Part shown: positions 19,245 to 22,878 of the stretch, piece after piece
How positions within the stretch are numbered: position 1 is the first letter of the stretch
Layout: every line of letters starts with the position of its first letter
Assembly (NCBI GenBank): GCA_903912525.1
Contig: CAIWHK010000029.1
Span: 1 to 64,000, forward strand
DNA: 64,000 nt
DNA from: an uncultured bacterium
GTDB lineage: Bacteria; Krumholzibacteriota; Krumholzibacteriia; LZORAL124-64-63
Direction: 5' to 3'
The notes under the pieces: generated by a model
Seen by the model: the letters and a program-made list of their open reading frames with translations, nothing else
Told to the model about the DNA's origin: nothing
Database searches by the model: none
Program-made: the position numbers and the translations under genes

Positions 19245-20771
19245 CTAAGGGTCCGGTTGCGCCACCGCGAGCCCGTGCCGGAACTCGAGCGCCTCGCGCA
19301 GATGGACCTCGTCCACCGCGCGGCTGCCGTCGAGCGCCGCCACGGTCGCCGCCACGTCCCGACAGCGGTGGACCGCCCGCAGGGACAGGTCGAACATCGC
19401 GCGCGCCCGATCCAGGAATCCGTCATGTCCGGCGGAGTGCGGCGGCCCGCCGCCGACGCGCCACTCCTCGAGGCGTCCGCGTGCGGCCTCCAGGTCCGCC
19501 GGCGTCGGCGCCACCCGCCACCCGCCCTGCGTCGGCGCCACAGGCGCGTCGGCGAAAGCGCCGCGCCAGGACGCCATCTCCACGAACAGGTCGAAGCGAT
19601 CGAGCAGGGGACCGGACAGCCGCCCGAGATAGCGCGCCCTCTCCTGCGGTTGGCAGCGGCACGAACGCGTGCTGCTGCCGTGGTAACCGCAGCGGCAGGG
19701 GTTGGTGGCCGCCACGAGCTGGAACCGGGCGGGAAAGGTCCTTTGCCCGGCGCCGCGCGCCACGGTCACGTGGCCGTCCTGCAGGGGCTGGCGCAGGACG
19801 TCGAGCACCGAAGGGTGGAACTCCGCGAGTTCGTCCAGGAACAGCAGGCCGCCGTGCGCCAGGGTCACTTCGCCCGGGCGCAACGCGGCGCCGCCCCCGA
19901 CCAGCCCGGCGCGCGTGACGGTGTGGTGCGGGGCGCGGAACGGCCGGCGGTCGATGAGTCCGTCGCCGACCGGAACACCGGCAGCGCTGTGGATGCGCGT
20001 GATGGTCAGTGCGTCCCGCCGGTCGGGCGGCGACTGCAGGTCGGCCAGCAGGCGCGCCAGGCGCGTCTTGCCCGTCCCCGGTGGACCGACCAGCAGCAGG
20101 TTGTGGCGCCCTGTGGCGGCGACCACGGCCGCCTTGCGCGCCAGTTCGTGCCCGGTCAGGGCCGCCAGGGCGGCGCAGGCCTCGGTCGTTGCCGGCGGGC
20201 CTCCCGCGGAGCGCCGACGCGGCGGTGCCGGGGAGACGACCGGCTCCACGCCCGTGCGGCACCAGTCGAGCACCTGCCGCAGGTCCGCAGCGGCGACGAC
20301 CTGCAGGCCCGGCGCCAGGCGTGCCTCTTCCGCCTGCGTGCAAGGCACCACCGCCAGGCGCGAACCGCGTGCCGCAGCATCCAGCAATACCGGCAGGACC
20401 CCCCGGACCGGGCGCAGTTCACCGAACAGCGAGAGCTCGCCGACGAACAACGCGCGTAGCCGCGCAGCGGCGCCCGGCTCGACGGCCAATCCCTCGGCGG
20501 CGGCGACGATTCCCAGCGCGATCGCCAGGTCGAACGAGGCGCCGCTCTTGCGCACGCCCGCCGGAGCGAGGTTCACCGTGATGCGCCCCGGCGGCACACG
20601 CACACCGCTGTGCCGCAGGGCGGCCAGCACGCGCTCCCGACTCTCACGCACTTCGGCCCCGGGCAACCCGACGAGATGGAATCCCGGCAACCCGCGATTG
20701 ATGACGACCTCGACGCTGACCGACTGCCCCGCGATTCCCGCGACAGCCCCCGTGCTGATCCTGACCGGCAT
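19245..20771 (-). CDS. comM: ComM/YifB-family Mg-chelatase-like AAA+ ATPase
   Basis: A 508-residue protein. The N-terminal ChlI-like domain begins 'MPVRISTGAVAGIAGQSVSV'. A Walker A GPPGTGKTRLAR lies at about 220-231, and a Walker B 'GGLLFLDELAEF' at about 300-311. A zinc-like Cys cluster follows ('NPCRCGYHGSSTRSCRC'), then the C-terminal Mg-chelatase domain. ComM homologues are hexameric helicases that promote branch migration during natural transformation and recombination. The start at 20771 follows GGAGG and matches the family N-terminus. It is convergent with the outer membrane protein and 280 bases downstream of the histone gene, from which it is separated by a strong terminator. Confidence 0.95.
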   Translation of the reverse strand: MPVRISTGAVAGIAGQSVSVEVVINRGLPGFHLVGLPGAEVRESRERVLAALRHSGVRVPPGRITVNLAPAGVRKSGASFDLAIALGIVAAAEGLAVEPGAAARLRALFVGELSLFGELRPVRGVLPVLLDAAARGSRLAVVPCTQAEEARLAPGLQVVAAADLRQVLDWCRTGVEPVVSPAPPRRRSAGGPPATTEACAALAALTGHELARKAAVVAATGRHNLLLVGPPGTGKTRLARLLADLQSPPDRRDALTITRIHSAAGVPVGDGLIDRRPFRAPHHTVTRAGLVGGGAALRPGEVTLAHGGLLFLDELAEFHPSVLDVLRQPLQDGHVTVARGAGQRTFPARFQLVAATNPCRCGYHGSSTRSCRCQPQERARYLGRLSGPLLDRFDLFVEMASWRGAFADAPVAPTQGGWRVAPTPADLEAARGRLEEWRVGGGPPHSAGHDGFLDRARAMFDLSLRAVHRCRDVAATVAALDGSRAVDEVHLREALEFRHGLAVAQPDP

Positions 20772-20967
20772 GGCGCCTCCCCGTGTCCGCTTCACGGATG
20801 AGGCAAGCGCCGGGCCGCGCGGGCCGTCGGGCGACCATGTCCCGCCGCGGCCGGTGGACGTCGGTGTTGCTGCGCATCCGGCACCGCGGACACTTGCGAG
20901 AGCGACGCCGTGCGCTGACACATCCGGGGTGGGATGTCGGCCCTCGGCTGCAACGTGGCGGGAACCC

Positions 20968-21004
20968 GCAAAAACGAAACGGGGATCCGCTGGGATCCCC
21001 GTTC
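20968..21004 (-). terminator. intrinsic terminator of the histone gene
   Basis: On the minus strand, AACGGGGATCC / GGATCCCCGTT forms an 11-base stem with a CAGC loop, followed by TCGTTTTTG. It lies 46 bases past the histone stop codon, making that gene monocistronic and insulating comM. Confidence 0.88.
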
Positions 21005-21049: not shown

Positions 21050-21220
21050 CTACAGGTCGCAGGGACGAACGGTCTTGCGACCGTTGTCGAGGGCACGCTT
21101 CTCAGCGGCCAGGATCAGCTCGCGCACCTTGGCGTCGAGGGCGTCGTAGAACTCGCCGGAAACGTTGCACTCCTTGACGGCTTCCTTCGTCTTGGTCTTG
21201 CTGATAATCATGTCAGCCAT
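21050..21220 (-). CDS. bacterial histone (single histone-fold protein)
   Basis: A 56-residue gene with ATG at 21220 (GGGAGG seven bases upstream) and TAG at 21050. The translation starts MADMIISKTKTKEAVKE and ends RALDNGRKTVRPCDL. The pattern is a short helix (residues 4-17), loop CNVSG, a long helix (about 23-46, EFYDALDAKVRELILAAEKR) and the loop NGRKTV with the archaeal-histone signature RxTxxxxD (R48, T50, D55). Length and truncated third helix match bacterial histones such as the Bdellovibrio Bd0055 type, which bind DNA as dimers. It is basic in the C-terminal loop. Codons such as GTT, GCT, CGT and GGT are enriched compared with its GC-rich neighbours, suggesting strong expression. It has its own promoter and terminator. 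The alternative is another small helical protein, but the loop motif makes that unlikely. Confidence 0.88.
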   Translation of the reverse strand: MADMIISKTKTKEAVKECNVSGEFYDALDAKVRELILAAEKRALDNGRKTVRPCDL

Positions 21221-21396
21221 GGGGTTCCTCCCTCGGACTGTGGGACGTGGATCGTGCCGTCACGCCGCGGGGCACCCGGCTCGCGACGTCCCAAAGGACA
21301 TCTGACCCAGGGGACGTTTTCCCTCGGGCGTACCGGAAACGGCGGGCGGCTTGGAATTCTGGCGCCGGCTACGGGACCTTGGCCGGCCGACCCGGT

Positions 21397-21425
21397 CACA
21401 ATCGCCTCGACACTCCAGCCTGTCA
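21397..21425 (-). promoter_or_regulatory. promoter for the histone gene
   Basis: On the minus strand, a perfect -35 TTGACA (21420-21425) is 17 bases from -10 GATTGT (21397-21402). This implies a leader of roughly 170 bases before the ATG at 21220, long enough to hold RNA structure. Confidence 0.55.
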
Positions 21426-21507
21426 AGGGTAGTTTGGCGGCCTGTAGACACTGGAAGAAGCGCGCCAGACCCCGCCCTGCGCGCCGGCCCGAACCCCGGA
21501 GATTGTC

Positions 21508-22878
21508 ATGGCGCTCGACGACGTTCTCGCGTACCTCCATGCCCACAGGCAGACGCACGTGGACCAATTGTGCGACCTGCTCCGCATCCCGAGCATCAGT
21601 TCGCAGTCCGACCACGCGCCCGACGTCCGGCGCGCCGCGGAGTTCTGCGCGAACGAACTGCGCGAACTGGGCCTGGCCGTCGAGATCATCGAGGGTGACG
21701 GCCTCCCCCTTGTCTTCGCGCAGACGGCGCCGCGCCCCGACCGTCCGACGTTGCTGATGTACGGCCACTACGACGTGCAGCCGGTCGACCCGCTCGACCT
21801 GTGGACGACGGCGCCGTTCGAGCCGCGCATCGAGAACGACATCCTCTATGCGCGCGGTTCCACCGACGACAAGGGCCAGTTCTACGCGCACTTCAAGGCG
21901 CTCGAGGCGTACGTGCGCACCGGCACCGACCTGCCGGTGAACCTCAAGTTCATCCTCGAGGGCGAGGAGGAATGCGGCGGCCACCACGTCTACCGGTTCA
22001 CCGAGCAGAACGCGGAGAAGCTCGCCTGCGACGCGATCGTCGTCTCGGACACGGCGCTGTACAACGAAACCACGCCGGGCATCTGCTACAGCCTCAAGGG
22101 CCTCGCCTACATGGAGATCAGGGTGAGCGGCCCCGCGCAGGACCTGCACTCGGGCAGCTACGGCGGCACCGTGCAGAACCCGGCCAACGCGCTGGCGGAG
22201 ATCATCGCGCAATTGAAGGATGCGAACGGGCGTTGCACCGTGCCGGGCTTCTACGATGACGTGCTGGACCTGGACGCGGACGAGCGCGCGGGCTTCGCCA
22301 AGCTCGGCTACACCGACGACATCCTGCGCAGCGAGACGGGCGCGCCGGCGGCGTACGGCGAGGCCGGCTACACGACGCTCGAGCGCATGTGGGCGCGGCC
22401 GACCTGCGACGTCAACGGCATCACCAGCGGTTACGGCGGCCAGGGCGCCAAGACGATCATCCCCGCCCGCGCGATGGCCAAGGTGTCGATGCGACTGGTC
22501 CCGAACCAGGACCCCGACGGCATCGCGGCCGCGTTCTGCGACCATGTGCGCAAGCTGGCGCCGGCCGGCGTGACGGTCGAGGTGGAGAACCTGCACAACG
22601 CGAACCCGGTGCTCGTGCCGCGCCACTCGCCGATGATGCAGGCCGGCATCCGCGCGCTGCGGGCTGGTTTCGGCGCCGAACCGGTGTTCATCCGCGAGGG
22701 CGGCAGCATCCCCATCGTGGGTACCTTCCAGGCGTGCCTGAAGGCGCCGGTGCTGCTGCTGGGGTACGGGCTGTCGACCGACAATGCCCACTCCCCCAAC
22801 GAGAAGTTCCACCTGGCCAATTACTGGAACGGGGCCCGCACCAGCGCCCTGCTGTTCCACGAGGCGGCCGGCGGCTGA
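21508..22878 (+). CDS. M20-family metallo-dipeptidase
   Basis: A 456-residue cytosolic zinc peptidase of the M20 (carnosinase/DapE-like) family. Metal and catalytic motifs are clear: 'LMYGHYDVQPVDP' (about 88-100), 'ARGSTDDKGQ' (about 117-126) and 'ILEGEEECGG' (about 153-162). The 'RHSPMM' and 'REGGSIPIV' segments close to the C-terminus complete the site, with the last His in 'NAHSPNEKFH'. It probably releases amino acids from dipeptides. It starts with ATG after CGGAG. It is monocistronic, divergent from the histone gene across a 287-base gap and followed by its own terminator. Confidence 0.93.
   Translation: MALDDVLAYLHAHRQTHVDQLCDLLRIPSISSQSDHAPDVRRAAEFCANELRELGLAVEIIEGDGLPLVFAQTAPRPDRPTLLMYGHYDVQPVDPLDLWTTAPFEPRIENDILYARGSTDDKGQFYAHFKALEAYVRTGTDLPVNLKFILEGEEECGGHHVYRFTEQNAEKLACDAIVVSDTALYNETTPGICYSLKGLAYMEIRVSGPAQDLHSGSYGGTVQNPANALAEIIAQLKDANGRCTVPGFYDDVLDLDADERAGFAKLGYTDDILRSETGAPAAYGEAGYTTLERMWARPTCDVNGITSGYGGQGAKTIIPARAMAKVSMRLVPNQDPDGIAAAFCDHVRKLAPAGVTVEVENLHNANPVLVPRHSPMMQAGIRALRAGFGAEPVFIREGGSIPIVGTFQACLKAPVLLLGYGLSTDNAHSPNEKFHLANYWNGARTSALLFHEAAGG

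Follow-up and report, generated by a model that had tools for sequence, protein, structure and literature searches.

In bacteria, histones of the face-to-face (FtF) kind often have an N-terminal tail with positive charge. The α3 histones are marked by a very short α3 helix, and HTkC of Thermococcus kodakarensis (9F2C) was identified as an FtF histone (PMC11390915). In the FtF profile, R48 and N52 join two dimers, and bacterial dimers lack both residues (PMC11390915). HLp of Leptospira perolatii (9QT0–9QT2) is also an FtF histone, in which the tetramer residues are R49, N53, and R55, and it wraps approximately 60 bp of DNA (9QT0; PMC12701072). HBb, or Bd0055, of Bdellovibrio bacteriovorus (8FVX, 8CMP, 9EZZ, and 9F0E) works as a dimer (PMC10627809; PMC11317129), and Bd0055, which coexists with HU, and the histone of Leptospira are both found in large amounts in the nucleoid (PMC10627809). 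As to divergent transcription, bacterial bidirectional promoters have been described in which one pseudo-symmetric region gives two divergent transcripts from a single shared, symmetric -10 box (PMC12825309 and work cited there), and the basal firing of those of E. coli was reported too low for competition between the two sides (PMC12825309).

The window analyzed in this study, a stretch of 64,000 nucleotides from an uncultured Krumholzibacteriota bacterium, carries a 56-codon open reading frame with the product MADMIISKTKTKEAVKECNVSGEFYDALDAKVRELILAAEKRALDNGRKTVRPCDL (Table 1). It is a true gene, because the protein is letter-identical in the three genomes of the genus where it was found (the window, L003, and L004) despite 13 silent codon differences from L003 and 5 from L004, with no amino-acid difference from either. 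Homologues, the fold model described below, and these silent-only differences bear out the original prediction of a histone gene with a single histone fold, and its loop, GRKTVRPCD, fits the RxTxxxxD signature as had been claimed. The strong Shine-Dalgarno sequence and the terminator of that prediction were likewise found; given the GGAGG ribosome site and a 12-bp terminator stem just downstream, the histone is therefore most likely a single-gene transcript. A shift to T-ending codons had also been taken as a sign of high expression. Such codons make up 14.5% of the window histone gene vs. a median of 4.9% in the 39 window genes, a level reached by 2.8% of 56-codon chunks, but only 3.6% of the histone gene of L003 in the same genus. 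Thus, the shift is real in the window genome but not conserved, and is weak evidence of expression.

Table 1. Coordinates of the histone gene, its neighbors, and the putative signals around them in the window.
Feature	Position	Strand	Basis or conservation
ComM/YifB-like Mg-chelatase AAA gene, downstream of histone	19245..20921	-	Synteny in most of the family; true start perhaps downstream of that given by the ORF tool
Intrinsic terminator (stem of 12 bp, loop of 4 bases, T-rich tail)	20977..21004	-	Terminator scan
α3 (FtF-type) histone gene, 56 aa, tail-less	21050..21220	-	ORF, homologues, fold model
Shine-Dalgarno GGAGG, 6 bases before histone ATG	21227..21231	-	Sequence; relatives keep it
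Whole putative interleaved divergent promoter element	21397..21435		Single copy in genome
Putative histone -10 hexamer GATTGT, 17-bp spacer	21398..21403	-	A2 and T6 kept in 32/32 genomes
Putative M20 peptidase -35 hexamer TCGACA	21407..21412	+	TTGGCA in one genus (g13), still 5/6
Putative histone -35 hexamer TTGACA	21421..21426	-	TTGACA or TTGACG in 32/32 family genomes
Putative M20 peptidase -10 hexamer TAGTTT, 17-bp spacer (18 in two genomes)	21430..21435	+	A2/T6 in 30/32
M20 peptidase gene, divergent, shares promoter region	21508..22878	+	Synteny kept across the family

The AlphaFold model of a single chain (mean pLDDT 86) contains helices at residues 8–14 and 22–45 and a three-residue α3 (HHH) at residues 53–55, within the 3–4 residues to which α3 is cut down in α3 histones. 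The helix-loop-helix-loop-helix fold is thus present, and the histone reading, which called for this fold and for a shared conserved core, stands. The model superposed on solved α3 histones with an rmsd of 0.8–1.4 Å. In the Foldseek comparison with the PDB, HTkC (TM 0.90, rmsd 0.9 Å) and HLp (TM 0.91, rmsd 0.8–1.0 Å) ranked ahead of HBb (TM 0.83–0.88, rmsd 1.3–1.4 Å), and all others among the matches listed had a TM of 0.70 or lower. As a single sequence, the protein matched HTkC (9F2C, E 8e-8), HLp (9QT0, 2e-3), and HBb (4e-3); the 60-sequence family profile scored HLp at 71 bits, HTkC at 64, and HBb at 56, and the four top PDB sequences were all α3 histones. A nucleosomal archaeal histone of the HMfB type was ruled out by the lack of any match to PF00808 (nucleosomal archaeal histones, HMfB) in the genome of the window, by the three-residue α3 (vs. 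approximately 10), and by a Foldseek TM of only 0.46–0.49 to HMfA. As for other family models, DUF1931 (PF09123) was rejected at 18.8 bits against a curated cut-off of 21.8, with a match over 34 residues only, a Pfam Neuropep_like match fell below its cut-off and is unrelated, and the NCBIfam search returned no match to the histone.

The residues that distinguish FtF tetramers from dimers were then compared. The FtF-profile residues R48 and N52 correspond to R42 and N46 of the window histone, and the RxTxxxxD residues R54, T56, and D61 to R48, T50, and D55. All five, together with K49, are invariant in 60 homologues, although many of these were retrieved with peptide seeds covering some of the conserved loop, which makes the invariance of the loop partly an effect of how they were chosen; a whole-protein search within the phylum, free of this seed bias, found the same residues kept. 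In the alignment with HLp, R42, N46, R48, K49, T50, and D55 stand opposite R49, N53, R55, T56, T57, and D62. The conserved α1 lysine 16 of FtF histones is represented by K12 or K10 (aligned with HLp K17 and K15); of the 60 homologues, 57 have K or R at the first of these positions and 56 at the second. The HLp DNA contacts K15, K17, K21, G29, and T57 align with K10, K12, K16, G22, and T50, and the contact T27 with V20.

Compared with the individual relatives, the window histone shares with HTkC a single tail-less α3 fold, the RKT loop, and R at the first tetramer position, and HTkC is both its best single-sequence and its best fold match (46% identity). However, HTkC is archaeal, is three residues longer, and has E, not N, as its second tetramer residue, showing that the FtF signature is not absolute. 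HLp, the best profile match, is bacterial, and all of its three tetramer residues and the contacts K15, K17, and K21 are kept; in contrast to the window histone, it has an N-terminal tail and T56 in place of K49, is only 39% identical, and falls in a separate clade of the 58-column tree. HBb has in common with the window histone the α3 fold, the RD clamp, and the α1 lysines, at approximately 33% identity.

The original prediction had placed the protein with the dimeric Bd0055 type, bending or coating DNA as a dimer. HBb is indeed a clear homologue with the same monomer fold within 1.4 Å, and the RKTxxxxD loop and the α1 lysines are common to both proteins; but R42 and N46, said to be missing in bacterial dimers (PMC11390915), are kept here, whereas the alignment places S and D at these two positions of HBb, and FtF histones rank first both by sequence and by structure. 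A dimer of the HBb type is therefore considered unlikely, and the protein was filed as FtF-type, a subfamily formally defined by a ring-shaped tetramer and assigned here from sequence and a single-chain model. The charged tail, common in but not defining bacterial FtF histones, is absent from the 56 residues, and the net charge is only +1, which is low for an abundant DNA compactor and counts against a wrapping tetramer. On the whole, we hold with reasonable confidence that the protein is an FtF-type α3 histone, probably forming a DNA-wrapping tetramer and working beside HU.

By this FtF reading, two dimers would most likely join through the C-terminal part of α2, loop 2, and the very short α3 into a ring-like tetramer, with R42, N46, and R48 of one subunit placed against the other dimer. 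A lysine band on α1 (K10, K12, and K16) together with the loop residues G22 and T50 would hold the DNA backbone without sequence preference and, by analogy with HLp, approximately 60 bp would wrap around the ring. The histone, predicted to be abundant, would act beside HU as an architectural protein.

HU is not missing: four HU-family genes were found in the genome of the window, and HU is present in 37 of the 38 family genomes, mostly in three copies. The histone would thus add to HU, and the earlier suggestion of a main nucleoid protein draws only on conservation and expression-like signals. A main role is a possible and reasonable idea, given the large amounts of Bd0055 and of the Leptospira histone in the nucleoid (PMC10627809). 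The several HU copies kept, the very low net charge, and the fixed neighborhood with a dedicated shared promoter would also suit a protein of the histone fold whose task is local or regulatory, for example as a subunit of another complex, instead of general packaging. This is judged quite improbable, as the DNA-contact residues are retained, close relatives within the class carry lysine-rich tails, and both bacterial α3 histones that have been studied in vivo are abundant in the nucleoid (PMC10627809).

The main unexpected feature of the locus is the putative interleaved divergent promoter. The original prediction gave the gene a promoter of its own with a perfect TTGACA. The hexamer is indeed perfect and lies 206 bases upstream of the histone ATG, but the promoter appears to be interlocked with a putative promoter of the neighboring M20 peptidase gene. 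GATTGT matches the -10 consensus at only 3/6 positions, and a consensus promoter scan did not call TTGACA-N17-GATTGT; the histone promoter is credible because it is conserved across the family, not because of its consensus match. In the alignment of the family upstream regions, little of the leader is kept except AAACTA-nn-CTTGACA-N8-TGTCGAG-GC-GATTGT-G, which is present in 32/32 family genomes inspected. A pattern search of 80 genomes found this element once per histone-bearing family genome, at the histone, and next to nothing with reversed-pattern controls. Read on the plus strand, the element gives TCGACA-N17-TAGTTT facing the M20 peptidase gene, so that two promoters with 17-bp spacers would interleave, each -35 box lying inside the spacer of the other. 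A promoter serving the histone only was dropped, as the divergent reading explained all four conserved blocks.

The histone would then be transcribed alone from one side of the element, and the other side would drive the M20 peptidase gene. The two exceptions to A2/T6 in the peptidase -10 box are the two of 32 genomes with an 18-bp spacer, and the histone -10 box GATTGT is kept more strictly than that of the peptidase. The latter strictness, greater than a free -10 box needs, would also fit an operator, in which CTTGACA-N8-TGTCGAG is a dyad bound by a regulator and not a pair of interleaved -35 boxes; its halves are near-inverted repeats (6/7) at a fixed distance. Against this, conserved blocks outside the dyad lie 17 bp from each half on opposite strands, with A2 and T6 kept (32/32 and 30/32), the change of TCGACA to TTGGCA in one genus moves the dyad mismatch while the -35 match stays at 5/6, and in families without the peptidase as a neighbor the corresponding half and the other blocks are gone while TTGACA is kept approximately 80 bases upstream of the histone. 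We regard the operator as a doubtful explanation, although it and the two promoters can both be true.

Similar to the described bidirectional promoters, the element would produce two divergent transcripts from one region of pseudo-symmetry; unlike them, it has separate -10 boxes, and each -35 box falls within the spacer of the opposite promoter. Polymerase might occupy only one side of the element at a time. That such either-or promoters couple the levels of histone and peptidase should not be assumed, considering the low basal firing reported in E. coli (PMC12825309). The broader proposal, that a tail-less, near-neutral FtF histone serves as a core chromosomal protein whose level is coupled to that of the M20 peptidase by interleaved promoters held by selection across 13 genera, is put forward tentatively, as rather unlikely to hold in full. 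The conserved element offers a testable handle on the control of a bacterial histone gene. No genome-wide regulon was found for it, since beyond its single copy in each genome there were only a few strays with three mismatches, and Rfam detected no RNA element in the histone leader, where two matches scored far below the gathering score. Three genomes (L030, L036, and L037) have, besides the conserved element, a second TTGACA-N17 promoter-like site closer to the histone.

The histone was found in the same place in 33 of the 38 genomes of the family and, by profile match, in 48 of 80 genomes of the phylum. The five family genomes without a histone match are all fragmented (410–790 contigs), two are only 75% complete, and they do not have the promoter element either; missing contigs are therefore a likely reason in at least some of them. 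Nearly all members of families f2, f4, and f8 carry the histone, and it is mostly absent from f3, f5, f6, and f7. The Krumholzibacteriota would join those bacteria that have retained a histone among their core genes, not as a stray acquisition. In the open-access literature searched, no paper was found that names both Krumholzibacter (with any ending) and histone; the phylum is not mentioned in the body of the main histone survey, whose supplementary tables may list the family.

Outside the phylum, the nearest proteins come from Planctomycetota, Myxococcota-like, and Elusimicrobia MAGs (63–69%), followed by a haloarchaeon (57%) and Diapherotrites. The window histone sits among FtF histones that are close in sequence to archaeal ones, a position relevant to the timing and route by which bacteria acquired histones. 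The tree has few well-supported forks, its long branches meet, and 58 columns are too short to settle an archaeal origin; no transfer is therefore claimed. FtF signature residues also occur in the histones of several Patescibacteria-type genomes (Peribacteria/Peregrinibacteria; L108, L110, L114, L115, and similar), many of whose starts are without a recognizable Shine-Dalgarno sequence.

Within the phylum, the histones of families f8 and f2 (L042–L049) have short lysine-rich N-terminal tails and, where computed, net charges of +10 to +12 vs. +1 for the tail-less window histone, so that tails were gained or lost inside a single phylum. All four f4 genomes encode a second, divergent histone besides the main one (37–45% identical for L050, L054, and L055). 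That of L050 carries a 28-residue lysine/alanine-rich N-terminal tail; in L054 and L055, a similar stretch lies just upstream of the chosen start, and the true starts may lie further up. In addition, one genome of the window's family has a second protein resembling a histone (MNENKKPEEKLIIGAAAKRLAKN...; L056, G039:C68), which is highly divergent and placed on a long branch of the tree.
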